The translations under genes were made by a program, and so were the position numbers. 64,000 nucleotides of DNA from Anaerolineae bacterium (GTDB lineage Bacteria > Chloroflexota > Anaerolineae > DRVO01), in assembly GCA_013178015.1 (NCBI GenBank), contig JABLXR010000006.1, positions 1 to 64,000 of the forward strand, written 5' to 3'. Positions 6,149 through 31,321 of the stretch are shown in pieces. How positions within the stretch are numbered: position 1 is the first letter of the stretch; every line of letters starts with the position of its first letter. The notes beneath the pieces were generated by a model, which was given only the letters and a program-made list of their open reading frames with translations, did no database searches and was not told the origin of the DNA.

Positions 6149-7045
6149 TCAGCCCTTGAGTCCTGAGAGAGTGATGCCCTGGATGAAATAGCGCTGGGAG
6201 AAGAAGAACACGATGAGGCAAGGCAACATGACAATGACCGAGTACGCCATGAGATGCTGCCACTGTGTATAGTACTCATCGCGGAAGGCGACCAGACCCA
6301 GAGCCAGGGGCCACTTCTTCGCGGTCCGCAAGTAGATGAGCGGCTCCATGAAGGAGTTCCAGTTGCCGACAAAGGAGAACACAGCGACGGCGGCCAGAGC
6401 CGGCCCCGCCAGTGGCATTATGATCCGCCACCAGATCAGGGGCGGAGTCGCCCCATCCATTGTAGCCGCTTCGTCGAACTCCTTGGGGATTCCCATGAAG
6501 AACTGCCGTAGCAGGAAGACATAGAAGGCGCTTGCGAAGAACGAAGGTACAACCAGGGGCTTGAAGGTGTTGGTCCATCCCATCCTGTGGAACAGCACGA
6601 ACAGCGGGATCATGGTCACCTGCCCGGGCAGCATCATGGTGGATAGCAGAACCGCGAACAGGACGTTTCTGCCCGGCCATTCGAGTCTGGCGAAAGCAAA
6701 GGCCACGATCGCCGAAGAGATAACCACGGCGCACATCGGCACAACGGTGATGATAAGCGTGTTCACGAAATACCTGGCAGTGGGCACCATCACGAGCGCG
6801 TCTACGTAGTTCCCAAACTCCACCGGGTTGGGTATCCAAATAGGCGGGTTGGTGAAGACCTGGGCGTCTGTCTTGAGTGATGTTGACAGCATCCACAGGA
6901 AAGGAAAGAGGAAAGTCACGCCTACAGCGACCATCAGGGCATACAGGATCAGCGCCCGACCCACCACCAACGTGCGCCTAATCACAACGCGCCGTCGCCA
7001 GACCGTCGAGCTCTGCACATGGACGGGCTGAATCTCGACCGTCAT
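6149..7045 (-). CDS. Carbohydrate ABC transporter permease, MalG type
   Basis: 298 residues with about six transmembrane segments and the ATPase-contacting EAA loop (EFDEAATMDGA ... IIMPLAGPALA, about 190-225), typical of CUT1 MalG-like subunits. A ribosome-binding site GAGGTAGGG precedes ATG 7045. It lies 45 nt after the MalF-type gene. The operon has no ATP-binding subunit, which is usual for CUT1 systems sharing an MsmX/UgpC-type ATPase encoded elsewhere. Confidence 0.93.
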   Translation of the reverse strand: MTVEIQPVHVQSSTVWRRRVVIRRTLVVGRALILYALMVAVGVTFLFPFLWMLSTSLKTDAQVFTNPPIWIPNPVEFGNYVDALVMVPTARYFVNTLIITVVPMCAVVISSAIVAFAFARLEWPGRNVLFAVLLSTMMLPGQVTMIPLFVLFHRMGWTNTFKPLVVPSFFASAFYVFLLRQFFMGIPKEFDEAATMDGATPPLIWWRIIMPLAGPALAAVAVFSFVGNWNSFMEPLIYLRTAKKWPLALGLVAFRDEYYTQWQHLMAYSVIVMLPCLIVFFFSQRYFIQGITLSGLKG

Positions 7046-7090: not shown

Positions 7091-7984
7091 TCAGGCCCGA
7101 CCCGTGAGAGGAGCGGGAGACTCGTAGTACACCCACCGGCCGGAAGACCGGAAGACCACAAACGTGAAGAAGAGCACGACCAGGAACAGAACCCAAGCCA
7201 TGGCCGAGGCATAGCCCATCCGCAGGTATTGGAAAGCATTGTAGTAGAGGTAGAGCACGTAGAAGAGGGTCGAGTTTGCCGGTCCACCCCTAGTCATGAT
7301 GTAAGCATTGGTGAAGACTTGAAAGCTGCCGATGATACCCATTACCAGGTTGAAGAAGATTGTCGGCGTGATCAACGGCAAGGTGACATGACGAATCTTC
7401 TGCAGCCAGGCTGCCCCATCCACCATTGATGCATCGTATAGCTCGGCGGGGACACCCTGGAGTGCCGCCAAGAATATGACCATCGCCCTCCCGATCCCCC
7501 AGAAGCTCATCAGGATGAGGGCCGGTTTGGACCAATTCGGGTGCTGAAGCCAGAGAGGGCCCCTGATCCCCACTCGTTCGAGGAAGAGGTTGACTAGACC
7601 CAGGCTGGGATCGAACAGCCAAAGCCACAGCATCGAAAGAGCTACGCCAGACACCACCGAAGGCAAGTAGTAGACAGTGCGGAAGAGATTCTCGCCCGGC
7701 ATTCCCTGATTGAGCAGCACCGCCACCGCCAGCGCAAGGGCGAGGGAGAGAGGGACCTGAAAGACCGAATAATACACCGTATTATAGATCGCGATAGTGT
7801 GACGATAGTCGTCCGTGAACAGCTCCACGAAGTTCCGCAGCCCGACAAACGAGGGCGGTTTGAGCACATTATAGTCCGTGAAACTGAAGTAGATAGACGC
7901 AACCATGGGACCAAGCGTGAATGCAAGAAAGCCAATAACCCACGGGGAGACCATAAGGAATCCCCAGAGACGCTGTTGGCGCAT
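7091..7984 (-). CDS. Carbohydrate ABC transporter permease, MalF type
   Basis: 297 residues, six predicted membrane segments beginning GFLMVSPWVIGFLAF, and an EAA loop (AELYDASMVDGAAW ... VTLPLITPTIF). It lacks the extra N-terminal helices and large P2 loop of enterobacterial MalF, as normal for Gram-positive-style CUT1 systems. AAGGA lies about 6 nt before ATG 7984. It forms the channel with the MalG-type subunit downstream. A strong stem-loop (8011-8049) separates it from the upstream binding-protein gene. Confidence 0.93.
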   Translation of the reverse strand: MRQQRLWGFLMVSPWVIGFLAFTLGPMVASIYFSFTDYNVLKPPSFVGLRNFVELFTDDYRHTIAIYNTVYYSVFQVPLSLALALAVAVLLNQGMPGENLFRTVYYLPSVVSGVALSMLWLWLFDPSLGLVNLFLERVGIRGPLWLQHPNWSKPALILMSFWGIGRAMVIFLAALQGVPAELYDASMVDGAAWLQKIRHVTLPLITPTIFFNLVMGIIGSFQVFTNAYIMTRGGPANSTLFYVLYLYYNAFQYLRMGYASAMAWVLFLVVLFFTFVVFRSSGRWVYYESPAPLTGRA

Positions 7985-8075: not shown

Positions 8076-9449
8076 CTATGTCCCTTCGATGTCGAGCCCG
8101 GTATCAGGCCAATCGGGATAGGGTTCCATCGCTTTGTTGACCTCGGCCTCGGCATCGGCCAGCGCCTGCTCAGGCGACTTCACACCGAGGCTGACGGATT
8201 CAAGCATGGTGGCGATGGTATCTCCCATCTGTGAGTGTATGGGCCACTTACCCTGAGGGGCACCGTAGGTCGCGATGCCTTTGAAGGTCGCGGCGGTGCC
8301 ACGGAGGCGCATGTAGTCACTTTGGTCCACGGCTGACTTGCGTGGTGGTAGCTGGCCCCTGCTCTCGGCATATGCCACCAGACTATCTAGGGAAAGGTGT
8401 AGCTTCAGGAAGTCCCAAGCCGCTTCGGGATACTTGGAGTTGGGGGCAAGGGCCACCTGGTTGATGTAGGCTGTAACCACACGCCGCTCCTTCAGCGGCG
8501 GTAGAGGCAGCACCCAGTACTCCTCTTTCTCCGGCGCGTACTTGACCAACTCGCGCCAGTAGTACGAGGACACGTACCAGGCAATCACCACTTGCCCGGT
8601 GGCAAAGTAGTTGATGGGCGACTCTGCCAGTGGTGCTGCGCCTGTGGGCGCGGCAGCCCAGTTACGCTCTTTGATAAAGTTGAGGGCCCAAAGCCCGGCC
8701 TCGCTGTTGAAGGCGGCCTTGCCCCCTTTGAGTAGCGCGCCCTTGGCGCTATAGAGCACAAGGTAGTACTCAAGAGCGTAGTTGTCTGCAGTAGATCCCA
8801 TCCGAACTAGCTTGCCGTCCTCAACAATGGTGAGCTCCGGCACAGCAGCCAGATAGTCATCGAAAGTCCAGTCGTCCGGAATCGTGACACCCGCTTCTTC
8901 AGTCAGGTCCCGCCGATAGCAGTAGTCACGAGGGGCAAGCACGTTGGGCAGGCCCCACATCTCGCCCTGCCATTCGCAGTAGTAGGTGCAGAAATCGAAG
9001 AAGTCCTCCGCTTCCTCCCACTCCGCAAGTCTCTCGTTGAGGGGCAGGGAAAGCTGATTCTCAGCAGCGATTGGGCTCATCTGCGCCCACATAGTGAAGA
9101 TGTCCGGAAGGGCGTTGGCTGCCTTCGAGGTCAGCAGCACCTCCTGAAGGCTTCCGGAAGGCAACGGGGTGATCTCTATGTTTCCGTTAGGATACTTCTC
9201 CTTCCAGGCCGGTATTAGCACCTCGTCAATGTACGGCTGATAGTCCGGGTTGACAGCGATCTGGCCCAGTAGGTCGAACTTCTCGTCCGACGGCGCCGGG
9301 GCCGCCACTTCCGTGGCGGCAACAGCCTCCGGCGCGACCGGAGCGGCTGAGGGCGTCGGCGCACATGCTGCCAGTACGCCACTTGAGGCGATGGCCACGC
9401 CAAGTAGCCCGGAGTCCTTTAGCAGAGCTCTACGAGTGATCCTGCCCAT
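8076..9449 (-). CDS. Sugar ABC transporter substrate-binding lipoprotein (operon 1)
   Basis: 457 residues. The N-terminus has a twin-arginine-like TRRALLKD, a hydrophobic stretch and lipobox LAAC (Cys about 29), then an Ala/Pro-rich linker, so it is an exported lipoprotein. The body is a family 1 extracellular solute-binding protein (IPAWKEKYPNGNIEITPLP, ALPDIFTMWAQMS, and a C-terminal repeat region with PDWPDTGLD). It captures a sugar outside the membrane for the MalF/MalG pair downstream. AGGAGG precedes ATG 9449. It is divergent from histidine kinase 1 across a 238-bp spacer, suggesting coordinated regulation. Confidence 0.93.
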   Translation of the reverse strand: MGRITRRALLKDSGLLGVAIASSGVLAACAPTPSAAPVAPEAVAATEVAAPAPSDEKFDLLGQIAVNPDYQPYIDEVLIPAWKEKYPNGNIEITPLPSGSLQEVLLTSKAANALPDIFTMWAQMSPIAAENQLSLPLNERLAEWEEAEDFFDFCTYYCEWQGEMWGLPNVLAPRDYCYRRDLTEEAGVTIPDDWTFDDYLAAVPELTIVEDGKLVRMGSTADNYALEYYLVLYSAKGALLKGGKAAFNSEAGLWALNFIKERNWAAAPTGAAPLAESPINYFATGQVVIAWYVSSYYWRELVKYAPEKEEYWVLPLPPLKERRVVTAYINQVALAPNSKYPEAAWDFLKLHLSLDSLVAYAESRGQLPPRKSAVDQSDYMRLRGTAATFKGIATYGAPQGKWPIHSQMGDTIATMLESVSLGVKSPEQALADAEAEVNKAMEPYPDWPDTGLDIEGT

Positions 9450-9687
9450 CTCTTCAGCCTCCTGTAGGCGAATGGAGAGCGATACCCGTCCACTAGCTTG
9501 TCAGCTTCCACCTCCAGGTCGCGTGTGGTACCATACTCGTACTGTGTACTGCACTCCGTAGCCCGCTTCAACCCTTCTCCGCCGATCGGCTGCCAGGCTC
9601 GCTGCCAAGACGCTGCCATGCGCTCGCTGGAGGCGTGGAACAACCTGAGAGATACTGGGCAGGGGCAACCTACCCATCGGAGGCTCG

Positions 9688-11895
9688 ATGCTCAAGTCCG
9701 TCTCCACTGTACTGCTTGAGGGTTACGAGGGCGACGAACACGTCCAGGAGCTTCGCTGGCGATCCCTGCTGCTCGTGGCACTGGCCTGTGCTATCTTGGC
9801 CTACGTATGGCTGTTCCAGGCCGCCACTTTCCCGGCCGGATTGTCAGGGTCAGTCCTGCCGCCTCTGGGCATGGTGGCTCCACCTCTGGTGCTGACCGCT
9901 GCCACCGCTATGGTACTGGCTCTGAGGAGGTACCACGCCATTGCCCCGGCAGTGATGGCGAGCGGACTCGTGGCGTGTCTCTTCATCTGGCAAGACCCTA
10001 TGCGCTACTACCTGGCTCCCGGGGCCGTCTGCGTCATCGGCCTTCTGGGCAGCCGCCGCCTGGGGGTGCTGGCCACCCTGGCTGTCTCGTCTCTGCCTGA
10101 TGCTCCCGGTCCAATGCTCACGTCCGTCTGGCTGGTCCTCTTTGCAGTGTACCTGTCAAGCGACTCCTTCTATGCTCTCATTCATGATGCCCTGATCAGA
10201 GAAGAGGCTGCCGCTGACCTTTCTCGCGAGCTACTGGAGCGCCGTGGTGAGCTTCGGCGCCTCAACGACTCGCTTCGCAACGCTTACCTTCTCCTTGAGC
10301 GCACCAATCATGAGCTTGCTGAAGCCAGGGACGAGGCCGAAGAGGCTCGGCGGCTCAAAGCGCGGTTCGCTGCTGTGGTCAGCCATGAGTTGCGAACTCC
10401 GCTCAACCTGATTCTCGGGTTCACTGAGGCCATGCACAAGATGCCGGAGCTCTACCGAGGGGCCGTGTTCACGCCAGAGCTGCGCGGCGACATCCGCGAG
10501 GTCTACCGTAGCGCCAGATACCTGCTCTCGCTGGTAGATGACGTGCTGGACCTGTCCCGTGTAGAGCAGACCGATCTGGCTTTGATGCCGCAGGAGACTG
10601 ATATCACGACCCTCATCCGCGAAGCTACCTCCGCTGTGGCAGGGCTCTTCCGCGGGCGGCCCGTCCGCCTGAGGGAGGAGTTCTCCGACCCCATCCCCCC
10701 CTGCATCGTGGACCCCACGCGCATTCGACAGGTGCTCACCAACCTGCTGACCAATGCTGCGCGGTTCACCGCCGAAGGTGAAGTGTGTGTCAGCGCATGG
10801 TTCGACGGGAACTACCAGGAGATAGTGGTGTGCGTAAGCGACACCGGTCCTGGCCTGCCCGCGGAAGACAGAACGCGCGTGTTTGACGCTTTCTTCCAGG
10901 TGACTGGCTCCCTGGGACGGGAGTATGGTGGCTCCGGGCTCGGTCTCGCCATCTGCAAGACATTTGTGCAGCTTCATGGCGGCCGCATCTGGGTGGAGAG
11001 CGAAGTCGGTCAGGGCAGCCGGTTCTACTTCAGCCTTCCGCTTCGCCCGTACTGGCGCAGCCTTGAGAAGTGGAAGCTCCAAGGTTCCGCAGATCCCTTC
11101 GGGGACAGCTTGTTGGTGCTCGGCGATGCGGGAGGTCTATCAGAGACTCTCCAGCGATCTCTATCCGACCTGAACATCCACCACGTTGCCGACCCGCTTG
11201 ATCTGAAGGAGGCAATTGCCCAGTGGCACCCCCGATGCGTCGTCGCTTTCGGGCAACACAGTGGACGACCGGCAGCTGAGTCCCTCGAGGGCTTGGCAGC
11301 TTGGCCGGGGCTGCCGCTTCTGCTCTGCGAGTTGCCGGATGGCAAGCCCCTTTCATCCTACCCACAGATCAGGGGAGTCCTGCGCAAACCAATCGCACAA
11401 CGGGCCTTGGTGCAAGCCGTGGACGAGCTGGGCCCGGTGCGCACCCTACTGGCGGTGGATGATGAAGAGGGCATGACGAGGCTCATACAGCGGATGCTCT
11501 CGCAGGCCCGGCCACATGTCTCAGTCCTAGCCGCTCACGATGGCGATGAAGCTCTCTCTGCTCTGCGCCAGTTCCGACCTGACGCTCTGGTTCTAGATCT
11601 GGCGATGCCGGGCAGGGATGGTCTATCACTATTGGAGGCTATGGCAAGCGAGAGCCTGGCCAACATACCCGTGGTTGTCCTCACTGGCCTGGGCGAACAT
11701 GGAGACGAGATAGCAGTCAGGCGTGTCGCTATCCAGTCCTTGCCTGGCCTTCGCGAGACGGAATTCATAGGCATCCTGCAGAGCCTGGCGCAGACGGCTC
11801 GGCCTTCGTATTTGGGACAAGCCGCGGCAGCTGACTTCTGCGACCCCGAGCCAGCCCAGCGCTCGCTGGCGCTTGACCCTCGTGATGGGAGGTGA
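9688..11895 (+). CDS. Hybrid histidine kinase 1 with two half-degenerate receivers
   Basis: 735 residues. About six membrane helices (25-160) without a large sensor domain, a coiled coil (172-228), HisKA with H233 (SHELRTPLN), HATPase with N356, D385TG and GSGLGLAI (about 415-422). Then two receiver-like domains. The first (about 472-582) keeps the beta5 Lys (LRKP, K567) but has Phe where the phosphorylated Asp belongs (VVAFGQ). The second (about 586-700) has the acidic pair DD 591-592 and D637 (LDLAMPG) but no Lys. ATG 9688 follows GGAGGCTCG. It probably signals to the adjacent response regulator; the signal is unknown. It is divergent from sugar operon 1 and paralogous to the kinase at 24367. 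Confidence 0.9.
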   Translation: MLKSVSTVLLEGYEGDEHVQELRWRSLLLVALACAILAYVWLFQAATFPAGLSGSVLPPLGMVAPPLVLTAATAMVLALRRYHAIAPAVMASGLVACLFIWQDPMRYYLAPGAVCVIGLLGSRRLGVLATLAVSSLPDAPGPMLTSVWLVLFAVYLSSDSFYALIHDALIREEAAADLSRELLERRGELRRLNDSLRNAYLLLERTNHELAEARDEAEEARRLKARFAAVVSHELRTPLNLILGFTEAMHKMPELYRGAVFTPELRGDIREVYRSARYLLSLVDDVLDLSRVEQTDLALMPQETDITTLIREATSAVAGLFRGRPVRLREEFSDPIPPCIVDPTRIRQVLTNLLTNAARFTAEGEVCVSAWFDGNYQEIVVCVSDTGPGLPAEDRTRVFDAFFQVTGSLGREYGGSGLGLAICKTFVQLHGGRIWVESEVGQGSRFYFSLPLRPYWRSLEKWKLQGSADPFGDSLLVLGDAGGLSETLQRSLSDLNIHHVADPLDLKEAIAQWHPRCVVAFGQHSGRPAAESLEGLAAWPGLPLLLCELPDGKPLSSYPQIRGVLRKPIAQRALVQAVDELGPVRTLLAVDDEEGMTRLIQRMLSQARPHVSVLAAHDGDEALSALRQFRPDALVLDLAMPGRDGLSLLEAMASESLANIPVVVLTGLGEHGDEIAVRRVAIQSLPGLRETEFIGILQSLAQTARPSYLGQAAAADFCDPEPAQRSLALDPRDGR

Positions 11896-11931
11896 ACTCT
11901 GCAGGAGCAGTCGAAGATTACTGAGGAAGAT

Positions 11932-13074
11932 GTGCGGGAGCTCCTCGGCGGGCTCTACGACAACGCCTACTTGAGCCAGCACCGCCTGTTGCCCATGCTG
12001 GTCGAGTCGCCCTCGCCCGACCCTGGATTCAGAGCTCAGCAGCTGCGCAGTCTGGTCATCGACACCGTCAACTCCCTCTGGCCGGCGGGAAGGCCATCCA
12101 CAGGCGATAGAAAGCAGCGGGCCTGCCGCGCACTGGCCTATCGCTACCTCGACGGCCTGGCAAACGCTGACATTCGAAAGCGACTGGCCATCTCCGAGAG
12201 GCAGCTGTTCCGAGACCTTAGCCTTGGAGTGCACCTTCTGGCTGTGGCTCTGTCCGCCCGCGCGGGCCGGCGGCCCGAGCCCAGTGAAGAGGCGCTAGCT
12301 GCCAGCTTGAGCAGAGTTGGCCTGAGACTGGAGCGGCTGTCCCTGCAAGAGGTGTGTTCCCAGGCGCTTCCGGTGGCGGAGAAGCTGGCGACCAAGCTGG
12401 ACAAGAAGCTGGTCGTCGAGGATGGTAGCAGCGGCGATTCCTTAGCTGTTGCCGATATGGCCCTGTCCCGTCAGGCTCTTATCGTGGTGCTAGCCTACGC
12501 TCTCCGCGCCGCAAGGTCAGAAGTGCTGCTCGAGCAGACCACCGGTACACAGACTGAGATCATCACCGTCCGGTTCGAAACGGATCCACAGCGCCTTGAG
12601 GACAGTGATCCAGAGGCACTGCACCTGGCCCGGCAGTTGCTCGAGCAGCAGGGCGGTTCTCTGCAAGTCTCTACCGCTGGCGAGCAGGTCATATGTCTTC
12701 ACTGGCCCAAGTTCCAGTCTCCCGCCATCCTCGTGGTGGAGGACGACCCCGGCATGCTGCGCCTCTTTGGCCGTTACCTTGGCGGGCACGGGTATCGGGT
12801 GATCGGGCTCTCAGACGGCTCGAGAGCCGTCGAACTCGCCCGCGAGAACCGGGTGCGTCTGGTGATACTGGACGTAATGATGCGCGGCATGGATGGGTGG
12901 GCAGTGCTGCAGCGGCTGAAGGCCAGCCCCGACACGCAGAGTGTCCCCGTTCTAGTCTGTTCAGTGATCAACGAGCCGCACCTAGCCAGCGTGTTGGGGG
13001 CAGAGATGCTCCTGAGGAAGCCGGTAACGGGAGAGCAGCTGCTGGAGGCTGTGGCCACCATCGTGGGCATATGA
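11932..13074 (+). CDS. Response regulator 1: HTH, degenerate HATPase, receiver
   Basis: About 380 residues. A sigma-70 region 4-like helix-turn-helix lies at about 62-105 (RYLDGLANADIRKRLAISER). The middle region (about 125-260) resembles a decayed HATPase: LSRQALIVVLAYALRAA in the N-box position, LHLARQLLEQQGG in the G-box position. The C-terminal receiver (about 263-380) has acidic EDD, phospho-Asp in LDVMMRG and Lys in LRKPV, so it looks functional. The start is uncertain: GTG 11932, or non-standard CTG 11899, which is 6 nt after GGAGG (11888-11892) and restores the N-terminal length of the paralogue at 26462-27676. The CTG start would lie 4 nt past the kinase stop, implying tight coupling. 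Confidence 0.85.
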   Translation: MRELLGGLYDNAYLSQHRLLPMLVESPSPDPGFRAQQLRSLVIDTVNSLWPAGRPSTGDRKQRACRALAYRYLDGLANADIRKRLAISERQLFRDLSLGVHLLAVALSARAGRRPEPSEEALAASLSRVGLRLERLSLQEVCSQALPVAEKLATKLDKKLVVEDGSSGDSLAVADMALSRQALIVVLAYALRAARSEVLLEQTTGTQTEIITVRFETDPQRLEDSDPEALHLARQLLEQQGGSLQVSTAGEQVICLHWPKFQSPAILVVEDDPGMLRLFGRYLGGHGYRVIGLSDGSRAVELARENRVRLVILDVMMRGMDGWAVLQRLKASPDTQSVPVLVCSVINEPHLASVLGAEMLLRKPVTGEQLLEAVATIVGI

Positions 13075-16506: not shown

Positions 16507-16731
16507 GTGCCGCAATGGTATGAGATCACAGTCAGGGGCCATCTCGATCCGCGCTGGTCGGTGAGGTTCGCCGACCTGCAAGTGACGCACCTGGAGGGGA
16601 ATGCAACCCGGCTGTCCGGCCTACTCCCGGATCAGGCGGCGCTCCACGGGCTACTGGAGCGCATACGCGACCTCAACCTGACCCTGATCTCCGTTACCTG
16701 CGGCGGTCCTTCTACCGAGTGGCGCGAATGA
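16507..16731 (+). CDS. Small conserved protein of unknown function
   Basis: 74 residues with GTG start preceded by AAGGAGG. The pattern YEITVRGHLDPRWSVRF ... THLEGNATRLSGLLPDQAALHGLLERIRDLNLTLISV resembles a widespread family of 65-80 residue soluble proteins in actinobacteria and Chloroflexota with no known function, often near regulators or ATP-binding LuxR genes. No signal peptide or metal site is visible. It overlaps the upstream extension of the next frame, so the two are probably co-translated. Confidence 0.75.
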   Translation: MPQWYEITVRGHLDPRWSVRFADLQVTHLEGNATRLSGLLPDQAALHGLLERIRDLNLTLISVTCGGPSTEWRE

Positions 16732-16748
16732 TAGGCATGGAGGGAGAC

Positions 16749-17513
16749 ATGACTAGTCTAGCCGCCGGTTCCCGCACTATGGCCGTGATGATCTGCCTTA
16801 TCCTACTGCTTGCCGCCACAATTGGCCTGGCCTCTTGCGCAAGCGCAACCGGAGACGTTCTCACCTACGATCTGGTGGAGCCTCTCAATGGCGTGACGTC
16901 TGCCAGGTTCAACATCGACGCAGGCAACGGCAACCTCACCATTGACTGGCTCACCGGAGGCGAGCCGCTGCTGGCAGGGGGCACCCTGCAGTACCTGGAA
17001 AGGCAAGGGCAGCCCATGCGGACTCTGGTCTCGTTTCTCGGCGAGGCTACGCTAACACTGGAGGGAGGGGATCAGGGACAGTCCTGGTTCCGCCTGCCTT
17101 GGGCAGCCTGCAACGGGGCCACCGAGTGGAACATCCACCTCAATCCCACAGTCTCGTCCGATATCACCGCCCACAGCAACGGCGGCAACGTCAGGCTGAA
17201 CCTGGCCAGCATGGCTGTCACCAGAGTCACGGCCGATACCGGCGGAGGCAACATGGAAGTGATCCTGCCCGACAACGCCACCAACCTCACCGTCTCTGCC
17301 AAGACGGGCGCGGGAAACGTACTGGTCAGCCTCCCAAGCGGCCTCGCAGCACGCATCCACGCTACCACCGGACTGGGTAAGGTGATCGTGGACCCGAGCT
17401 TCAGCCAGACCGACAAACACACCTACCAATCATCCGACTACGATACCGCCGCCAACAGGGTCGAGCTCACCCTCAGCAGCGGCGCGGGCAACGTGAACGT
17501 CACCACCAACTAA
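16749..17513 (+). CDS. DUF4097-like lipoprotein, tandem copy 1
   Basis: About 254 residues. ATG 16749 is chosen because GGAGGGA lies just upstream and it begins a signal sequence (MAVMICLILLLAATIGLASC, split) with lipobox LASC. The mature part is a series of short beta-strand repeats rich in G-N-L/V-x-V (GNGNLTIDW, GGNVRLNLAS, GGGNMEVILPD, GAGNVLVSLPS, GAGNVNVTT), typical of DUF4097 / 'toast rack' beta-helical adhesin-like folds. Such proteins are often attached outside the cell and encoded near envelope-stress regulators; the biochemical role is unknown. The region 16855-17508 is duplicated almost perfectly 712 bp downstream. Confidence 0.8.
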   Translation: MTSLAAGSRTMAVMICLILLLAATIGLASCASATGDVLTYDLVEPLNGVTSARFNIDAGNGNLTIDWLTGGEPLLAGGTLQYLERQGQPMRTLVSFLGEATLTLEGGDQGQSWFRLPWAACNGATEWNIHLNPTVSSDITAHSNGGNVRLNLASMAVTRVTADTGGGNMEVILPDNATNLTVSAKTGAGNVLVSLPSGLAARIHATTGLGKVIVDPSFSQTDKHTYQSSDYDTAANRVELTLSSGAGNVNVTTN

Positions 17514-18225: not shown

Positions 18226-18417
18226 AGCGCGACCCCGCCCTGGCCGCTCGGCTGTCTGGGCCGGCCGGTGCGGGGTAGTACGCTCCTGGCCGCGGGTTGG
18301 TGCAGCCAGCCCTCGCGGGATGCCGTGCGCCGGGGCGGCGAGGTGACACTGCAGAAAGTCACATGCAGTCCGGTGGCGAGAACTCTCTCGGCAAACCCAC
18401 TAGCAAGGAGATAGGTC
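18226..18417. other. GC-rich spacer with possible terminator
   Basis: ACCCCGC near 18231 can pair with GCGGGGT near 18270, with an inner GGCC/GGCC-type pairing. This could act as a weak terminator after the DUF4097 pair. No U-tract and no gene seen. AAGGAG at 18405-18410 serves the next gene. Confidence 0.3.
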
Positions 18418-23764: not shown

Positions 23765-24366
23765 TGGGTTTGTATTGGTGTGATGCGCCCAAATGCGAGC
23801 GCCAGGGACTGCAGGGGAGTGTGACGCCTGCCAGAGGGGATGCAGACCATGAGCCCATCGGTTCGCATTGCCCCGTCCACAAAGGAGCCAAACGTGAGGA
23901 ACGCACACACTGCGCGTTTGACGGCCGCACAGCCAACGACGAGCTCGTAAGGAACGCGCCGGACAGTGGGGACCTGGCCGGCGATGACTATGGCCTCTCC
24001 CCCGACGAGCAGGGGAACCGCCTCCAGGTTTCGCCACAGCTTCCGAACCGCTGCCCGGCGGGCGAACCTACACGAGTGGATCAGAGCAGGCCCGGAACCG
24101 GTGGAATGGCCGCTCGACCCCTAACGGTGTAACCGCGACAGACTCAGTGCCGTGGCTGCGCGGCTCAGTGCACGCGGCGAGGCTGGACCGATGGACCCAG
24201 TTAGAGTCGCGTGACGTGGCGGAAGAGTGGGTTGACGAAAGGGCCACCGTGTGCTTCTTGAGCTTGTCCGGTAAGACAGCAGCAAGGAGGACACAGTGGC
24301 CGAGGAAAGGATGGGGGCAGTTGAGCGGTTGTGCAAAGGGCAGGGAGGGGAACTGGAGAGGTGAGC
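23765..24366. other. Divergent intergenic region, no gene supported
   Basis: About 600 bp between the peptide-operon promoter and histidine kinase 2. A plus-strand open frame at 23737-24132 and several minus-strand frames lack ribosome-binding sites and domains and have unusual composition (many Cys/His/Arg). It probably holds the kinase-2 promoter, though no clear hexamer pair was found. GGAGAGGTGA at 24354-24363 is the kinase ribosome-binding site. Confidence 0.4.
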
Positions 24367-26559
24367 ATGGACACACAACCACGTCTAGCTCAGTCAGCGG
24401 GCGAATCCATGAGGCTCAATCAGGAGGAGATCTCCCTCTACGTGGTGAGACGCATCGCCGCGCTCGGAATCGGTGCGGCCCTCCTTGCCTGGTGGACTCT
24501 GCTGCCCTCGGCTGCACCTGAATCGGCTGTGTTCGTCTGGGTGCCCCTGATCGCTGTCATCTGGCTCTGTGCCTACCTGGCCTCCACTCAGCGGCCACGG
24601 CTCTCGGCTCACCTTACCGTCTTGGGCGCTGTGGCCGCGGTCATCATACCGGCTGTTGTCTATGGCATTGGTGAGGCCACGTGTGGCTTCGTCATTGCCG
24701 TCCTGGTGGCCGGCTCCCTCTACGGACCGTGGGTCGGCGTCGGGGTGGCCCTGGCACTCGCAGCCATCACTCCCTCACTTAGCGCTGCCCATCCCTGGCG
24801 TCTGCCGGTCATCCTCATCCTGAGCACCGGTGCCTGCCAGTGGGTGATCCTGAGGCCCCTTGCTTCGCTTCTAGAGCGGTCGTGGCAGCGAAGCGCGAGA
24901 GCCACTGAGCTGGCAGAAGCACTAAGGGACCACCAAGGCGAGCTGAACCGCGCCCTCACCGCGCTTGACCTCACTAACCGCCTGCTTCAGCGTACCAACC
25001 ACGAACTAGCAGCTGCCCGGCGGGAGGCGGAGGAGGCCCGACAACAGAGAGAGGATTTCGCCGTCAACATCAGCCACGAACTGCGCACACCCCTCAACAT
25101 CATCCTCGGCTTCACCGAGATCATGCATCAGTCCCCCGAGGTGTATGGCCAGGTACACTGGCCGCCCACCCTGCGCCGGGACCTGACCGAGATCTATCGT
25201 AGCGCCCGCTACCTCTCCGACATGGTTGACGACGTGCTCGAGCTAGCCCGGATGGAGGCATCCCTGCTGCCTATCCGGCGGGAACCAACCGACCTGGCCA
25301 CCCTCATCCGCGAAGCCGCCGACATCGCGGCCGCCCTATGGCGCGGACGGCCCATCGAGTTCATCGCCGACCTCGCCCCCGACTTGCCTTCTCTTTTCCT
25401 GGACCGCACACGAATCCGCCAGGTGCTCCTCAACCTCCTCGCCAACGCCAGCCGCTACACCGAGCAGGGGGCCATCAAGGTCTCTGCACACGTCCAGGAC
25501 ACTGACGTTCTGGTGTCGGTGGCCGACACGGGGGTGGGCATCCCGGCAGATCAGTTGGACGTCATCTTCAACGAGTTTCGCCAGGTGGACGCCTGGCGTC
25601 AGGGGGAGGCACAGGGAAAGGGCCTGGGGCTGGCGATAGCCAAGCGCTTCGTGCAGCTACACGGCGGCAGCATCTGGGCCGAGAGCGAGGTGGGCCGAGG
25701 AAGCACCTTCCACTTTACCCTGCCCCTGGAGCGCAAGGACTTCTCCCGCCTGCGTGCAGCGAACAAGGCCCCCTTGCCCACCAATCCATTCGCTAGGACG
25801 GTCATAGTCCTCGATGAGGACGAGCTATCCACGTGGCATCTGCAGCGCCACCTGGAGGGCTATCGAGTGGTGCACGCCGCCAACCCGGAGCAGCTGCCCG
25901 CCATGTGCCAGGAGATTCACCCTGACGCGGTGGTGGTCAACTCCAGGAACGCCGACAGCCGCTTGCTGGATGGCTGCAGTGCCGCGGTAGTGCGCATCGA
26001 GTGCGCCCTGCCTACCGCCGCTACCCTCCTGCAGCGGGGGCGCTTCCGCACCATTCTCAACAAGCCGGTCAGTCAGGCCGAGTTGGTCGCAGCCCTGCAG
26101 CAGGTAGTCCCGACGGGGGATGTGCTGATCGTCGACGACGATCGGGCTTTCGTACAGCTGGTGGTCCGCATCCTGGCCGCCAGCGGCGCCTCCTACCACG
26201 CTTCCTGGGCGTACTCGGCGGACGAAGGGTTGGCCAAAGCGCGCCGATCGTCCCCAGACGTTATCCTGGTAGACTTGGTCATGCCGGGCAAGAGCGGCAT
26301 GGCCATGGCCGAAGCCCTGGCCGCGGACGCCGAGCTTAGCCGCATACCCCTCATCGGCGTCACAGGGGCGGCCATGATGTTGGCCGGGAAACCCGGAGAC
26401 AGCAACCGCTTCGTCCTCGAGCGCCCCCGCGGCCTGCGGGATCAGGCGGTGATCGGCTTGATCAAGCAGTCGCTGGAGCTGGTGAGATCGGACTACTCGG
26501 CTGAGCTTGACAGCGCTCCAGGGCCGTCAGCAACTCCATCCGCGACACCGGCTTCTTGA
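24367..26559 (+). CDS. Hybrid histidine kinase 2 with two half-degenerate receivers
   Basis: 730 residues from ATG 24367 (GGAGAGGTGA upstream). Same plan as the kinase at 9688: about six membrane helices (30-165), coiled coil (172-232), HisKA H237 (SHELRTPLN), HATPase N360, D387TG, GKGLGLAI (about 417-424). First receiver (about 476-580) keeps Lys (LNKP, K566) but has Asn/Ser in place of the phospho-Asp (VVVNSR). Second (about 585-700) has DDD 590-592 and D636 (VDLVMPG) but Arg at the Lys position (LERPRG). Its 3' end overlaps the convergent response-regulator gene by 98 bp. It is flanked by transporter operons on both sides, which it may control. Confidence 0.9.
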   Translation: MDTQPRLAQSAGESMRLNQEEISLYVVRRIAALGIGAALLAWWTLLPSAAPESAVFVWVPLIAVIWLCAYLASTQRPRLSAHLTVLGAVAAVIIPAVVYGIGEATCGFVIAVLVAGSLYGPWVGVGVALALAAITPSLSAAHPWRLPVILILSTGACQWVILRPLASLLERSWQRSARATELAEALRDHQGELNRALTALDLTNRLLQRTNHELAAARREAEEARQQREDFAVNISHELRTPLNIILGFTEIMHQSPEVYGQVHWPPTLRRDLTEIYRSARYLSDMVDDVLELARMEASLLPIRREPTDLATLIREAADIAAALWRGRPIEFIADLAPDLPSLFLDRTRIRQVLLNLLANASRYTEQGAIKVSAHVQDTDVLVSVADTGVGIPADQLDVIFNEFRQVDAWRQGEAQGKGLGLAIAKRFVQLHGGSIWAESEVGRGSTFHFTLPLERKDFSRLRAANKAPLPTNPFARTVIVLDEDELSTWHLQRHLEGYRVVHAANPEQLPAMCQEIHPDAVVVNSRNADSRLLDGCSAAVVRIECALPTAATLLQRGRFRTILNKPVSQAELVAALQQVVPTGDVLIVDDDRAFVQLVVRILAASGASYHASWAYSADEGLAKARRSSPDVILVDLVMPGKSGMAMAEALAADAELSRIPLIGVTGAAMMLAGKPGDSNRFVLERPRGLRDQAVIGLIKQSLELVRSDYSAELDSAPGPSATPSATPAS

Positions 26560-27676
26560 GGCAAGCTGCCGCCCCCAGAGCCTGAGCCAAGCCGGGGTCG
26601 TGAAACACCGAGCAGACCACCACCGGCATGTCCCTCGTCTCCGGCTGAGTGTGCAGTGTCTGCAGGATGGTCCAGCCGTCCTGCTGCGGCATCATCAGGT
26701 CGAGAACGATCACCGCCGGCTTCATCCGCCGCGCCATCTCCACCGTCAGCCTGGGATCGGGGACGTTGACCATCCGCCAGCCCGGGCTATCCGCCAGGTA
26801 GCGCCGGTAGAGCTCAGCCGCCGCCTGGTTGTCCTCCACCACGAGCACCAGCCGCGGCTCCTCCACCTTCACCCGCAACCCCAAGGTAATGTCCTCGCCA
26901 GCTGTCTCCAGGTGCCAACCCAGGTGCTGAGACTCGGCCAGGCCGTGCAGAGGGCGAAGCAGATCATCCGGCAGGGAGGCAGCGGAACGGAATCGTACCT
27001 GGATGCAGACCTCGCCCCCATCCTCTCCGGCGCGAAGTTCCACCCCGGCACAGTCGCACACCTGCAAGGCCATGCTCAGGGCCTGTACCAGCACCTGCCG
27101 CAGTAGACCCTCGTCGGCGCTGATGGCCGGAAGGGCGGCCAGCTTCGTCCTCAGTGAAACACTGCGCCGCCTGGCCAGGATGGTGACGGCCTGCAGCACT
27201 TGGCGCAGGACCGCGCCCAGGTCCAGCCGGCGCGGGTGAGAGACAACCTGCCGCAGTTCGGCCTCCCAGGCTTCTTCTTCGCTGCGCTCGGGAGCTCGGC
27301 CGGAGCTGTAGGTGGTCAGCACCTTGGCCAGCTCCGCCTCGGCCCGGCGGAGCTCGCGATACGCCTGGCGCTCCCCAACTCCGAGCTCATCGGCCACCTG
27401 CTTGACGGTCATCTCCTCGAGGTACCGGAGCGAAAGAACGTGGTAGCTACGGGCACTGTGGTCCGTAAACGACGTGGACCTGACGGGGCGCAGGCGTTCG
27501 ATGGCGCTCAGCAGGGTGCGGCGTAGGAGCTGGGCGCGCAACTCCAGGTCGGTCTGAACGGCGATGTCGGGCAGCGCGCCGGCCAGGGCCCCCTGGGCGA
27601 GAACGACGTTTTCGTAGAGGTGCTCGAGCGCATCGCGCACCTCCTGCGGTCGCACTGCCGATGGGCTTGATTCCAC
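26462..27676 (-). CDS. Response regulator 2: HTH, degenerate HATPase, receiver
   Basis: 404 residues from GTG 27676. Paralogue of the regulator at 11932. The helix-turn-helix region (about 105-150, RYLEEMTVKQVADELGVGERQAYREL) is sigma-70 region 4-like. The middle domain has SADEGLLRQVLVQALSMALQV, an HATPase N-box relic lacking the Asn, and no clean ATP lid. The receiver (about 278-395) has ED, LDLMMPQQDG and LKKPVS, so it should be phosphorylatable. A short Pro/Ser/Ala tail (CQAQPSSPISPAPATA) lies in the 98 bp shared with kinase 2 on the other strand. It is divergent from sugar operon 2 (gap 283 bp) and is therefore a candidate regulator of it. Confidence 0.87.
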   Translation of the reverse strand: MESSPSAVRPQEVRDALEHLYENVVLAQGALAGALPDIAVQTDLELRAQLLRRTLLSAIERLRPVRSTSFTDHSARSYHVLSLRYLEEMTVKQVADELGVGERQAYRELRRAEAELAKVLTTYSSGRAPERSEEEAWEAELRQVVSHPRRLDLGAVLRQVLQAVTILARRRSVSLRTKLAALPAISADEGLLRQVLVQALSMALQVCDCAGVELRAGEDGGEVCIQVRFRSAASLPDDLLRPLHGLAESQHLGWHLETAGEDITLGLRVKVEEPRLVLVVEDNQAAAELYRRYLADSPGWRMVNVPDPRLTVEMARRMKPAVIVLDLMMPQQDGWTILQTLHTQPETRDMPVVVCSVFHDPGLAQALGAAACLKKPVSRMELLTALERCQAQPSSPISPAPATA

Positions 27677-27737: not shown

Positions 27738-27959
27738 GCCAACACGGCCAACGACGGCCGATGTAGAATGCAGTATAAGGTTCCCAGCCCAGTAGCAGCA
27801 ACCGGCCTGCTCGAGGTGCCATCCTCATACCTGCCCGCAACGGGCGACGACGCGGCCGGTGAGAAAGGAGGGGTGCGCAACAGCCAGCATGATCCATACG
27901 GTACAGGGGTGCTTTGGTCAGATTGGGGACAGGCAGGTCCCAGACCGAGGAGGCGAACC

Positions 27960-29357
27960 GTGAGGGAGAACAGGCTTACGAGACGGTCGTTGTTGGCAAT
28001 GTCGCTGAAGGTGGGCGCCGGCCTGGGCGCCATGGCCGCACTTGCCGCTTGCGGGGCTGCCACGCCACCTGCCCCGTCAGAGGGCGCCACCTCGGCCCCG
28101 GCGGCTGAAGCCGCCACCCAGCCGCCAGCCGCGCCCGCGGAAAGGATTGTCCTGCGCTACACTTACGATGAGACCCCCGGAGAGACAACCTGGAACGCCA
28201 AGATCAAGGCGGACTACGAGGCGGCCAACCCCGGCATCGAGGTCCGTCCGGAGCCCTCAGTCGAAGGCTGGGTGGAGAAGACCATAGCCGCTATGGTCGC
28301 CGGTACCGCTCCAGACATTCTCATCGCTTGGGGTTCCATATTCGCGAGCTTCGCCTCGCGCGGCGGCTACGAGGATATCACCGACACGGTGAAAGCGTGG
28401 CCCGACTACGATGACTTCTGGCCCAACGCCATCAACGAGCTGGGCGTCATGGACGGGAAGATCTACGCCGTCCCTTACTGCTTCGACCCCGTGACCATCT
28501 TCTACTATCACGAGAAGCTGCTGGACGAGGCCGGAGTGCCTTACCCCAACGACACCTGGACGTACGATGACTTCATGCAAAGCTGCATCGCGCTGACCAA
28601 GAAGGATGAATCGGGGAAGGTCGTGCAGTGGGGGTTCAACGGCTCCGAGACCACCTCCAGCGGAGGCCTGGGCCGCGCAATGGCAGCCGTCTGGGCCTAC
28701 GGCGGCGACAAGTACAACGAGGACATGACCCGCTGCTTGCTGGCGGAGCCCGAGGCCCTGGAGGCGATCAACCTCTTTTGGAGGCTGAAATCGGAGTACC
28801 AGGCGTCGCCAACGCCCGAACAGATGGGTGGGATGTCCTACTACCAGATGTTCGCCAGCGGCCAATGCGCCATGCAGACCACCGGCCCCTGGGCGATCAC
28901 CACGTACCTCGAGATGATCCAGGATCCGGAGCTCGCCAATCAGTGGGAGGTGGGACCGCCCCCGAGCGGCCCGAAGGGCAGGTTCGCTGTCGGTTCTGGC
29001 AACCTCTGGGGTCTGTGGAGTGGCGGCCAGCATAAGCCCGAGGCCCTGGCGCTGCTGCGGTTCATGACCGACCCCGACCGGGCAAAGGAAGTGGGTAGCA
29101 TCGCCAACCGAGTGCCTGCACGCAAGTCGGCGGCAGACTCGTTCGGCGATCCCGACAAGAGGCCCGAGAATGAGTCCGTGTTCCCGGCTGCCTTGGAGTA
29201 TGCCCTCCCCATCAAGTACCATCCCACGAAGGATGCTGAAGTGAGCGACATCATCGCCACGGCCTGGGAGGAGTTCATGATCCTAGAGAAGCGCACGCCT
29301 GAGGAAGCTTTGACCGAGGCATGCGCCAAGGTGGACAAGCTGCTTCAGGAGGGTTAG
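27960..29357 (+). CDS. Sugar ABC transporter substrate-binding lipoprotein (operon 2)
   Basis: 465 residues from GTG 27960, chosen because GAGGAGG lies 6 nt upstream and it starts directly at a Tat-like signal (RENRLTRRSLLAMS) with lipobox LAAC. The open frame extends upstream to 27768 without sense. The mature domain is a family 1 sugar-binding protein (LRYTYDETPGETTWN, GTAPDILIAWGSIF, FASGQCAMQTTGPWAI). First gene of an operon with two permeases, two GH4 glycosidases, an MttB-like protein and a methyltransferase. Confidence 0.92.
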   Translation: MRENRLTRRSLLAMSLKVGAGLGAMAALAACGAATPPAPSEGATSAPAAEAATQPPAAPAERIVLRYTYDETPGETTWNAKIKADYEAANPGIEVRPEPSVEGWVEKTIAAMVAGTAPDILIAWGSIFASFASRGGYEDITDTVKAWPDYDDFWPNAINELGVMDGKIYAVPYCFDPVTIFYYHEKLLDEAGVPYPNDTWTYDDFMQSCIALTKKDESGKVVQWGFNGSETTSSGGLGRAMAAVWAYGGDKYNEDMTRCLLAEPEALEAINLFWRLKSEYQASPTPEQMGGMSYYQMFASGQCAMQTTGPWAITTYLEMIQDPELANQWEVGPPPSGPKGRFAVGSGNLWGLWSGGQHKPEALALLRFMTDPDRAKEVGSIANRVPARKSAADSFGDPDKRPENESVFPAALEYALPIKYHPTKDAEVSDIIATAWEEFMILEKRTPEEALTEACAKVDKLLQEG

Positions 29358-29372
29358 CCCCGTAGGGTAACA

Positions 29373-29408
29373 GCCATGCACTCCACTGCCGGTCGTGGAG
29401 TGCATGGC
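29373..29408 (+). promoter_or_regulatory. Intercistronic stem-loop, binding protein to MalF (operon 2)
   Basis: A perfect 14-bp stem, GCCATGCACTCCAC (29373-29386) with GTGGAGTGCATGGC (29395-29408), and an 8-nt loop. It starts 15 nt after the binding-protein stop and ends 40 nt before the permease start. Expected to stabilise the upstream mRNA or reduce read-through. Confidence 0.85.
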
Positions 29409-29448
29409 CGTCGTTCAGCAGAAGCACAAGACCACACGAGGAGCGGCA

Positions 29449-30381
29449 ATGGCGACTGGAGTGCCACAGGCCCGCGCCCGCCTGGGAGTCCGGCGGCTGA
29501 AGCAGGCGCAGCAGGAGAACGCCGCTGGCTATCTGTTCATCTCCCCCTGGCTGGTCGGGTTCTTCGTGTTCACGGCCGGGCCCATGGCCATATCGCTGGG
29601 TCTCAGCCTGCTGAAGACAGACCTGCTGCGACCGTCCACTTTCGTCGGGCTCGACAACTTCGTGGCGTTGGTGGACGACGAGCTCTTCTGGAAGAGTCTG
29701 CGGAACACTGCCTACTACTCGCTCTTCAGCGTGGCCCTGGGGATGCTAGCCTCTCTGGCCCTGGCTTTCGTCATGAACGTGCGCCTCAGCGGTATCCGCC
29801 TCTTTCGGACCATCTACTACTTGCCCGCCGTGCTCCCCAGCGCTCCCGTCGCCATCCTCTGGCGCCAGATATTCAACCCGGAACGGGGGCTGGCCAACTA
29901 CCTGCTCGACCTGCTGAACCTTCCGCCGCAAAAGTGGATATACAGCGAGCGGCTGGCCCTGCCCTGCCTTATCGCCATGAGCCTGTGGGGGATCGGCTCC
30001 AGCCTGATGATCTACCTGGCCGGCCTGCAGGGCATTCCCACCGACCTCTACGAGGCAGCCCAGATAGACGGCGCAGGCTGGTGGCCCAAGCTCCGACGGG
30101 TCACCCTCCCCATGCTCTCGCCCACAATCTTCTTCAACTTGATCATGAGCATCATCGGCTCCTTCATGGTCTTCACCGCCTCTTACGTCATGACTCAGGG
30201 TGGCCCGAACAACGCGACTCTCACCTACGTGCTCTACCTCTACAACAGCGCTTTCCGCTACTTCAAGTTCGGCTATGCATCGGCGCTGGCCTGGGTGCTC
30301 TTCTTTGTCGTCCTGGGCCTGACGGCACTGGTCTTCCGGTCTTCTCCCATGTGGGTCTACTACGAGAGCGAGCTGCGCTAA
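29449..30381 (+). CDS. Carbohydrate ABC transporter permease, MalF type (operon 2)
   Basis: 310 residues from ATG 29449 (GAGGAGCGGCA upstream). An alternative upstream start at 29395 lies inside the stem-loop and is unlikely. Six membrane segments beginning AGYLFISPWLVGFFVFTAGP, and an EAA loop (TDLYEAAQIDGAGWWPKLRRVTLPMLSPT). Pairs with the MalG-type gene 19 nt downstream. Confidence 0.93.
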   Translation: MATGVPQARARLGVRRLKQAQQENAAGYLFISPWLVGFFVFTAGPMAISLGLSLLKTDLLRPSTFVGLDNFVALVDDELFWKSLRNTAYYSLFSVALGMLASLALAFVMNVRLSGIRLFRTIYYLPAVLPSAPVAILWRQIFNPERGLANYLLDLLNLPPQKWIYSERLALPCLIAMSLWGIGSSLMIYLAGLQGIPTDLYEAAQIDGAGWWPKLRRVTLPMLSPTIFFNLIMSIIGSFMVFTASYVMTQGGPNNATLTYVLYLYNSAFRYFKFGYASALAWVLFFVVLGLTALVFRSSPMWVYYESELR

Positions 30382-30400
30382 GGGCGGTACCGACATCGAG

Positions 30401-31321
30401 ATGAACAGAGCGACGGAAGCAACGGTGCAGGCACCAGCATCAGTCAGACGGGCCCCGCTCATCGCTGCCTGGGGCAGCCGCCGGGTCCGCCGGGCTGCGG
30501 GCCGACTAGCGCTCTACTTGGTGCTGGCGGCCGGATCGGTAGTGTTCCTCCTGCCCTTCTACTACATGCTCAACATGGCCGTATCTACTCCCGCTAGCAT
30601 TGGCAAGTACCCGCCCGACTGGATCCCGAGACCAATCATGCTATCCAACTTTCCCGAAGGTTGGGTGGCTTACTACAATTTCACCAAGTACCTCCGCAAC
30701 ACCCTTCTCATTACCAGCGCGACACTGGTGGGCCAATTGGTGTCCTGCACGCTGGTAGGCTACGGCTTCGCCCGCCTGCGTTTCTATGGAAGAGGGGTGT
30801 GGTTCGTCATTCTCCTCAGCACCATGATGCTACCCAGCCAGGTCACCCTCGTCCCCCAGTACGTCATCTTCGCCAAGCTGAAGTGGGTCAACACCTACAA
30901 GCCGCTCATCGTCCCGGCCTACTTCGGCAGTGCTTTCTACATCTTCCTCCTGCGGCAGTTCTTCATGACTCTGCCACGCGACCTCGATGACGCCGCTCGG
31001 ATAGATGGGTGCGGCTACTTGAGCATCCTGCTCCGAGTGCTGCTGCCCCTATGCAAACCCCCGCTCATCGCTGTGGGCGTCTTCTCCTTCGTCAGCCACT
31101 GGAGCGACTTCTTCGGCCCCCTCATCTACCTCAACGACCCGGAGAAATGGACCCTCGTCCTGGGCACCACGGCTCTGGTAACCTCCTGGGGCCACACCTT
31201 CATCCACATGGGCTACGTGATGGCGGTGACCACTCTCGTGGTTGTCCCCGTCCTGGTCATATACTTCTGGGCCCAGCGGTATTTTATCGAGGGGATCACG
31301 CTTACAGGTGTGCGCGGCTAG
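30401..31321 (+). CDS. Carbohydrate ABC transporter permease, MalG type (operon 2)
   Basis: 306 residues. A basic N-terminus (RRVRRAAGR) precedes six membrane segments, with an EAA loop at about 198-230 (RDLDDAARIDGCGYLSILLRVLLPLCKPPL). It ends in the MalG-typical QRYFIEGITLTGVRG. No ATPase subunit is encoded in the operon. Confidence 0.93.
   Translation: MNRATEATVQAPASVRRAPLIAAWGSRRVRRAAGRLALYLVLAAGSVVFLLPFYYMLNMAVSTPASIGKYPPDWIPRPIMLSNFPEGWVAYYNFTKYLRNTLLITSATLVGQLVSCTLVGYGFARLRFYGRGVWFVILLSTMMLPSQVTLVPQYVIFAKLKWVNTYKPLIVPAYFGSAFYIFLLRQFFMTLPRDLDDAARIDGCGYLSILLRVLLPLCKPPLIAVGVFSFVSHWSDFFGPLIYLNDPEKWTLVLGTTALVTSWGHTFIHMGYVMAVTTLVVVPVLVIYFWAQRYFIEGITLTGVRG

Follow-up and report, generated by a model that had tools for sequence, protein, structure and literature searches.

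Two complementary pseudo-receivers in tandem in a family of hybrid histidine kinases paired with a receiver-bearing regulator beside ABC importers in Anaerolineae

A hybrid histidine kinase and the regulator encoded next to it together make up a signalling unit that occurs in Chloroflexota, chiefly in the class Anaerolineae, and in which the kinase carries two complementary, half-dead receivers (REC1 and REC2) and the partner a canonical one. Two of these units, modules 1 and 2, lie in the window (the whole stretch of 64,000 nucleotides that was analysed); the genome to which it belongs encodes 35 full-length kinases and ~37 partners (~36 modules). We establish here the architecture of both proteins, the residue pattern and kinship of their receivers, the pairing of the genes and their synteny. 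On balance it is probable that the unit arose by duplication of a CA-REC segment and reciprocal decay of the two copies, was amplified to ~36 copies, most of them importer-side, and signals directly from the kinase DHp to the partner. Literature searches returned nothing on this kinase/partner family.

Active sites of the tandem receivers

The module 1 kinase has the following features.

9688..11895, + strand: hybrid histidine kinase, 735 aa, with five predicted TM helices, DHp, CA, REC1 and REC2
9745..10197, + strand: membrane domain, aa 20-170, five hydrophobic segments with short loops
10351..10572, + strand: DHp with H233 (SHELRTP)
10711..11046, + strand: CA (HATPase_c), ATP motifs kept
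11101..11436, + strand: REC1 pseudo-receiver, K567-P568 present, phospho-Asp absent, acidic pair degraded
11440..11787, + strand: REC2, D591/D592, D637 and T666 present, Ser at the Lys position

Pfam assigns HisKA (224-294), HATPase_c (342-453) and a single Response_reg (588-676) to this protein and has no match for REC1, even at E<1. Profile-profile comparison identifies REC1 as receiver-like, aligning it with the partner receiver (prob 99.4, E 1.4e-21) and with REC2 (prob 97.1, E 6.5e-11), and AlphaFold2 gives it the strand/helix order of a receiver, with helix 4 unclear; in the AlphaFold2 model of the kinase core (pTM 0.40) the domain arrangement is unreliable. At the end of REC1 strand 3 there is no Asp (..RCVVAFGQ..), Asp and Ser/Thr both being missing from the domain, and the end of REC2 strand 5 has no Lys (..VAIQSLPGL..). 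A sequence-only reading of the window had described K567 without a phospho-Asp in REC1, and an acidic pocket and D637 without a Lys in REC2; both ORFs and all these residues hold up, and the pattern is family-wide.

The full active-site quintet is found in 0/142 REC1s, 15/142 REC2s and 139/142 partner receivers. REC1 has kept its Lys in 141/142 but has no Asp at the phosphorylation site in 101/142, modules 1 and 2 included; Asp stands there in 41/142, but only 5 retain the acidic pair. The opposite applies to REC2: all 145 kinases have D637 and ~97% retain the acidic pair, but the Lys is lost in 127/142; the commonest residue at its position is Arg (69/145), with Lys in 15. A pseudo-receiver (PsR) is defined as lacking at least one of DD, D, T and K, and such domains make up ~6% of bacterial receivers generally (PMC12632262). 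REC1, with no complete example, is a pseudo-receiver by this definition, as the earlier reading had it, and so is REC2 wherever the Lys is absent. Set against the general ~6%, the quintet counts show that the half-dead pattern is not due to chance. Misreading or misalignment of the receivers is ruled out by the 35 paralogues of the same genome, by the 142-145 kinases overall and by the profile comparison, and chance decay of one gene by the family-wide occurrence of the pattern. K567, P568 and R490 of REC1 are conserved despite the loss of most of the phosphorylation site, and simple decay does not explain the near-invariant Lys-Pro. With aspartate-less and other pseudo-receivers (PMC12632262; PMC4395418) the family has in common a REC1 without Asp and acidic pair and a REC2 without Lys; the difference is that here two complementary ones stand in tandem in each kinase, conserved throughout the family.

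The partner regulator and the kinship of its receiver

The module 1 partner follows the kinase gene.

11932..13074, + strand: partner regulator, 380 aa, GTG start, with HTH, degenerate CA and canonical receiver
11932..12261, + strand: helical DNA-binding-like domain, sigma-70 region 4-like HTH
12319..12711, + strand: degenerate CA, HATPase fold, ATP lid and N/G1/G2 motifs gone
12721..13065, + strand: canonical receiver, quintet E270, D271, D314, S344, K363

Only the C-terminal receiver (residues 266-374 by Pfam) exceeds a Pfam cutoff in module 1. The N-terminal HTH matches PF07638 weakly in module 1 (E 0.076) and Sigma70_r4_2 in module 2 at 25.9 bits, against a Pfam cutoff of 25.7; this domain also occurs in other Chloroflexota proteins. 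In profile-profile comparison the middle domain (~130-260) matches the HATPase of the kinase (prob 98.7, E 3.5e-16), and its modelled fold is HATPase-like, but the N, G1 and G2 boxes and the ATP lid are gone; at 24% mean identity this dead CA is the least conserved domain of the partner. Profile alignment and predicted fold agree with the order read earlier from the sequence (sigma-4-like HTH, degenerate HATPase, canonical receiver), the HTH being weak in module 1. The module 1 partner fits no known response regulator output class, the usual order with a named output domain not being found.

Judged by sequence, the kinase REC1 and the partner receiver are of one class, the one that stands next to CA in ordinary tandem-receiver hybrid kinases, a relationship that is new here. 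In a receiver tree, in which the long REC1 branches could bias placement, a branch with SH-aLRT 96.6 sets apart REC1, the partner receiver and the CA-adjacent receivers of ordinary tandem kinases. Tree tests reject a clade of REC1 with REC2 (p-AU 0.026) and of partner receiver with REC2 (0.0008) and allow REC1 with the partner receiver (0.64). Strand 4 has a terminal Cys in 139/142 partner receivers and 107/142 REC1s, a residue that is not common there in REC2 or among 11 other receivers. Furthermore, the dead CA and receiver of the partner are colinear with CA and REC1 of the kinase over 245 columns (E 2.6e-43), and the alignment remains on CA-REC1 even when REC2 is offered. Ordinary tandem kinases of the same class share the DHp-CA-REC-REC order; their first receiver, of the REC1/partner class, looks complete by eye in 8/9 outside the family, and their second keeps a Lys near the end of strand 5. 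That the dead receiver of the kinase and the live receiver of the partner are of one class was not mentioned in the earlier reading.

The ancestor was probably such an ordinary tandem-receiver hybrid kinase, DHp-CA-REC1-REC2. The partner would derive from a second copy of its CA-REC segment, fused C-terminally to an HTH domain of Chloroflexota. Reciprocal decay would have followed, the kinase retaining CA and losing REC1 function, the partner retaining its receiver and losing CA function. A CA tree, with long branches, does not place the dead CA of the partner; its source kinase is therefore unproven. The unit would then have been amplified to the ~36 copies of this genome and set beside many ABC importers.

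Pairing and neighbouring importers

In 148 pairs the kinase gene lies next to the partner gene, the two converging in 137 and pointing the same way in 11. A search of genome contigs found relatives, receiver-only matches aside, only in Anaerolineae RSWS13 and in a single further Chloroflexi MAG. Sequence distances of kinase and partner track each other in 34 pairs of the window's own genome (Mantel r 0.5-0.75, p 0.00, 199 permutations), those of the partner receiver correlating best, among kinase domains, with REC2 (r 0.75). In a DHp-receiver covariation analysis of 144 pairs, helix 1 of no receiver stood out, and over all pairs the cognate similarity of REC1 and partner receiver is weak (z 1.8).

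Both modules of the window adjoin importer genes.

9450..9687, no strand: divergent intergenic region (238 bp) that separates the kinase from the importer operon, a candidate for control
8076..9449, - strand: solute-binding protein (SBP_bac_1) of an ABC importer
7091..7984, - strand: ABC permease (BPD_transp_1)
6149..7045, - strand: ABC permease (BPD_transp_1)
24331..26559, + strand: module 2 kinase, architecture and REC1/REC2 pattern as in module 1, Arg at the Lys position
26462..27676, - strand: module 2 partner regulator, convergent with its own kinase (the commonest arrangement)
27768..31321, + strand: ABC importer of module 2 with SBP_bac_1 plus two permeases, transcribed away from the partner gene; GH4 genes come next

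An ABC permease lies within 7 kb of 33/37 modules of this genome (expected 0.32). The architecture recurs beside importers in other genomes, with an importer gene near 52/56 pairs that have sufficient flank, and the nearest importer gene is divergent from the module in 107/118 pairs. The first reading mentioned neither the ~36 modules of one genome nor the recurrence of ABC importers beside them in other genomes. A comparison of 48 divergent intergenic regions gave no operator common to them, only 8-mers resembling ribosome-binding sites.

No extracytoplasmic sensor domain is seen in the module 1 membrane domain with its five hydrophobic segments; across the family there are 4-5 TM segments, with a median loop of 8 aa and >60 aa in 4/468 loops. 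Sequence variation in the kinase membrane domain is uncorrelated with that in the importers (r ~0), which weakens direct sensing of the transporter by specific contact.

Phosphate route and the roles of the dead domains

How the unit senses, passes phosphate and finds its DNA target, and what REC1, REC2 and the dead CA do, is inferred from these data. The membrane domain would need no extracytoplasmic sensor to detect substrate or the state of the importer, H233 would be phosphorylated by CA, and the phosphate would go from DHp straight to D314 of the partner, whose HTH would switch the divergent importer operon. REC2, able to hold phosphate but without the switching Lys, may serve as a sink or an occupancy brake on DHp, and REC1, which is not phosphorylatable, as a structural gate. 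We consider this combination of direct partner phosphorylation, REC2 sink and REC1 gate more likely than transfer from REC2 to the partner receiver, the route suggested in the sequence-only reading. That route is disfavoured because it requires a His intermediate, no Hpt in this genome passes the Pfam cutoff, and the REC2 Lys is mostly lost. Asp-to-Asp phosphate transfer is not known to occur without a His intermediate.

A role of REC1 as gate or ligand site, also raised earlier, is plausible. The comparison with ShkA of Caulobacter crescentus was well chosen: 6qrj is the best PDB match of the modelled kinase (E 1.4e-24, 500 aligned columns), and the order DHp-CA-pseudo-receiver REC1-REC2 is identical (PMC7010744). 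REC1 might, as in ShkA, be a ligand-binding gate, a small anionic molecule at the strand 5-helix 5 side with the invariant Lys-Pro freeing the kinase from inhibition. The pseudo-receivers of ShkA and CikA do bind ligands, that of ShkA c-di-GMP (PMC7010744; PMC12632262), and the conservation of K567, P568 and R490 in a domain that has lost most of its phosphorylation site would suit a binding surface, although part of this conservation could be structural. The DDR linker motif of ShkA, however, occurs in just 1 of ~144 REC1-REC2 linkers, and we consider a ligand gate possible but unlikely. The family further differs from ShkA in its 4-5 TM helices and in REC2, which mostly lacks the Lys that ShkA has (K480, mutated by its authors; PMC7010744).

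ShkA signals to TacA via a separate phosphotransferase, ShpA (PMC7010744), whereas no Hpt passes the Pfam cutoff in the window's genome. A multi-step phosphorelay would run here from H233 to D637 of REC2, then to a His carrier (either DHp again or an unrecognised protein resembling ChpT or Spo0B) and on to D314 of the partner. The invariant D637 and largely intact acidic pair mean that REC2 is probably still phosphorylated, and REC2 is the kinase domain whose distances best match those of the partner receiver. But the Lys is lost from most REC2s, in the gene layouts no further small gene recurs next to the pair or between its members, and a search to which ChpT-like carriers are invisible gave no Hpt (PF01627) above the Pfam cutoff and one sub-threshold match. 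We regard such a relay as unlikely.

Nor is it likely that the dead CA of the partner is a docking module for the kinase DHp, in the manner of the RetS- and DivL-type pseudo-kinases, with the dead REC1 competing with the partner receiver for one site. The domain is CA-like, REC1 belongs to the partner-receiver class, and DivL exemplifies a repurposed catalytic domain that reads a regulator (PMC4211667); yet cognate similarity of REC1 and partner receiver is weak and the dead CA is the partner's least conserved domain. Still less probable, in our judgement, is a cross-protein mimicry in which dead REC1 would sit in the partner receiver's DHp docking site and dead CA in the site of the kinase CA, as non-catalytic built-in competitors setting specificity across the ~36 copies. 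A split active site, in which the REC1 Lys serves the REC2 Asp site so that two half-dead receivers make one working receiver, would match their complementary residues but is very improbable, given that 15 REC2s have their own Lys though the REC1 Lys persists, that Arg most often replaces the Lys in REC2, and that the kinase model has no usable inter-domain confidence.

Among Bacteroidetes, hybrid two-component regulators of polysaccharide loci likewise comprise many paralogous sensor systems, each adjoining one nutrient-uptake locus; there, however, a single protein combines a periplasmic sensor with kinase, receiver and AraC HTH, and the systems served are SusCD. The likeness to the present family, one paralogue per uptake locus, is drawn from general description. 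Kinase and partner change together and the adjoining importers do not, so that the pair resembles a plug-in controller that can be reused, and the ~36 related but separate copies in one cell are a natural test of two-component insulation. What dead receivers do was called a mystery in a 2025 review (PMC12632262); complementary pseudo-receivers in >100 kinases provide a clean system for their role. The family also provides a starting point for predicting how importers are controlled in uncultured Anaerolineae.

The two receivers of the kinase and the receiver of its partner

The open reading frames of the module 1 kinase and regulator are borne out at the positions assigned to them by the sequence-only reading:

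9688-11895, + strand, module 1 kinase
11932-13074, + strand, module 1 partner regulator

The DHp and CA motifs of the kinase are intact, and its Pfam matches are HisKA, HATPase_c and a single receiver, the second (REC2). The first (REC1) has no Pfam match. REC1, though missed by Pfam, is receiver-like by profile-profile comparison, in which it matches the partner receiver (probability 99.4, E 1.4e-21) and REC2 (probability 97.1, E 6.5e-11). The middle domain of the partner matches the kinase HATPase in the same way (probability 98.7, E 3.5e-16). It has neither ATP lid nor ATP motifs (hence 'dead CA'), and the AlphaFold model of this domain (mean pLDDT 85) shows the strand and helix order of a HATPase. 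The partner receiver is intact, with the canonical quintet (acidic pair, Asp, Ser/Thr, Lys).

From fetched regions we put together 148 kinase-partner pairs, 142 of them with all three receivers. The quintet is complete in none of the 142 REC1 domains, in 15 of REC2 and in 139 of the partner receivers. The Lys is retained by 141 REC1 domains and the acidic pair by 5. For REC2 the counts are 138 with the acidic pair, 141 with Asp, 139 with Ser/Thr and 15 with Lys. Over 145 kinases, Lys567 of REC1 occurs in 144 and Pro568 in all; at the Asp position of REC1, 62 have Asn and 42 Asp, and at the Lys position of REC2, 69 have Arg and 15 Lys. The half-dead receivers beside an HTH, dead CA and receiver partner are thus confirmed and generalised to the family; the description (REC1 with Lys and no Asp, REC2 the reverse) fits module 1 exactly and is typical of the family, though not of every member.

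Distribution, pairing and genomic surroundings

Searches of the module 1 genome (4.57 Mb, 97 contigs) with the kinase and with the partner each returned about 36 matches, and 35 full-length kinases entered the alignment. By our count the family supplies some 36 of the genome's about 60 kinase-like matches; the window itself contains another copy of the pair, module 2. Strong matches (best E below 1e-25) to a profile of the partner HTH and dead CA occur in roughly 110 of 396 sampled genomes of the class, counted by eye, and in about ten more among some 345 Chloroflexota genomes outside it. A narrow pattern search of 84,980 species genomes, which may omit the window's own, returned two Chloroflexota MAGs as the only genomes with full relatives, receiver-only matches aside.

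The partner's HTH domain is also the C-terminal end of a conserved multi-pass membrane protein (roughly 650 aa) of distant Chloroflexota, which has matches in nearly every sampled genome. Two examples lie in fetched regions L298 and L299:

L298 1411-3345, - strand, membrane protein with terminal partner-type HTH
L299 1-1896, + strand, membrane protein with terminal partner-type HTH, followed by a DNA-translocase-like ORF

An ABC importer permease lies within 7 kb of 33 of the 37 own-genome modules, against an expected fraction of 0.32 for random points on the same contigs. Of 56 pairs from other genomes whose flanks were long enough, 52 have an importer gene nearby. Counting all pairs, 107 of 118 have their closest importer gene divergent from the adjoining module gene. 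Typically the importer is followed by the partner gene, divergent from it, and then by the kinase, convergent with the partner; module 1, with kinase and partner codirectional, is one of 11 such exceptions among the 148 pairs. Across 34 own-genome pairs the distance matrices of kinase domains correlate with those of partner domains (r 0.5-0.75, p 0.00, 199 permutations); importer distances correlate with neither (r about 0). Judged by these sequence distances, kinase and partner belong together and the pair duplicates as a unit, sitting beside unrelated importers. The membrane domain is the least conserved part of the kinase (mean identity 20%, compared with 56% for DHp, 51% for CA, 28% for REC1 and 36% for REC2) and in most kinases is predicted to have 4-5 TM segments, joined by short loops (4 of 468 exceed 60 aa).

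The importers by modules 1 and 2 have SBP_bac_1 proteins, and close to them are GH4 glycosidases, an acetyl-xylan-esterase-like protein and a GFO/IDH oxidoreductase. A sugar is the likely substrate at these two modules; since the neighbours of other modules are more varied, this is unproven for the family as a whole. Other genes in the window are:

13607-16363, directly after module 1, 918-aa protein, MalT-like by eye, that starts with a P-loop and finishes in a LuxR-type end
16719-18225, two adjoining near-identical ORFs (264 and 222 aa; 300-nt repeat at 99%, spacing 712 nt)
18297-19064, the next ORF, of similar length to that pair
32808-34223, MTTB (trimethylamine methyltransferase) family gene flanked by two GH4 genes on the downstream side of the module 2 importer
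37083-38924, one protein joining a lysyl-oxidase-like domain and LysM

Origin of the pair

A branch with SH-aLRT 96.6 places REC1 and the partner receiver on the same side as the CA-adjacent receivers of ordinary tandem-receiver hybrid kinases. A clade of partner receiver with REC2 is rejected (p-AU 0.0008), as is one of REC1 with REC2 (p-AU 0.026); REC1 with the partner receiver is allowed (p-AU 0.64). Compared region by region with the partner receiver, REC1 resembles it in strands 4 and 5 (identity 0.40 and 0.49) and REC2 in strands 1 and 3 (0.50 and 0.46). Strand 4 ends with a Cys in 107 of 142 REC1 domains and 139 of 142 partner receivers, a residue that is not common at that place in REC2. 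The profile of partner dead CA plus receiver aligns with kinase CA plus REC1 over 245 columns (E 2.6e-43), and keeps to them even with REC2 offered; the CA tree did not confirm the origin of the dead CA. In tandem kinases outside the family, read by eye, the first receiver is apparently complete in 8 of 9 and the second has Lys. The simplest account is that a CA-REC segment was duplicated onto an HTH, after which the kinase and partner copies would have decayed reciprocally. A dead first receiver with a Lys-Pro motif also occurs in a tandem-receiver hybrid kinase of another family in the same class (fetched region L109, 1054-4437, - strand, residues 771-890).

Roles of the receivers and route of the phosphate

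The domains are known and their order in the kinase resembles that of Caulobacter ShkA; the HTH-dead CA-receiver regulator and the conserved pair of complementary pseudo-receivers are apparently new, as we found no description of either in the literature searched. The sequence-only reading had suggested that REC1 gates the kinase or binds a ligand, and that REC2 passes phosphate to the partner. In favour of the first part, no solved structure is nearer to the modelled kinase than that of ShkA, whose pseudo-receiver gates the kinase upon c-di-GMP binding (PMC7010744); the DDR linker motif of ShkA, however, is essentially absent from this family. REC1 of module 1 is not phosphorylatable at the usual site, and across the family its Lys-Pro is almost invariant while the remainder of the active site is lost.

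The second part fares less well. No Hpt was found over the Pfam cutoff in the module 1 genome. Substitution of the receiver Lys does not always abolish phosphorylation (PMC12632262), and REC2 is probably phosphorylatable. Lacking the Lys it should switch poorly, and a sink or a brake on DHp is therefore a likelier role for it than a relay step. Phosphate would instead go straight from the DHp His of the kinase, H233, to D314 of the partner receiver.
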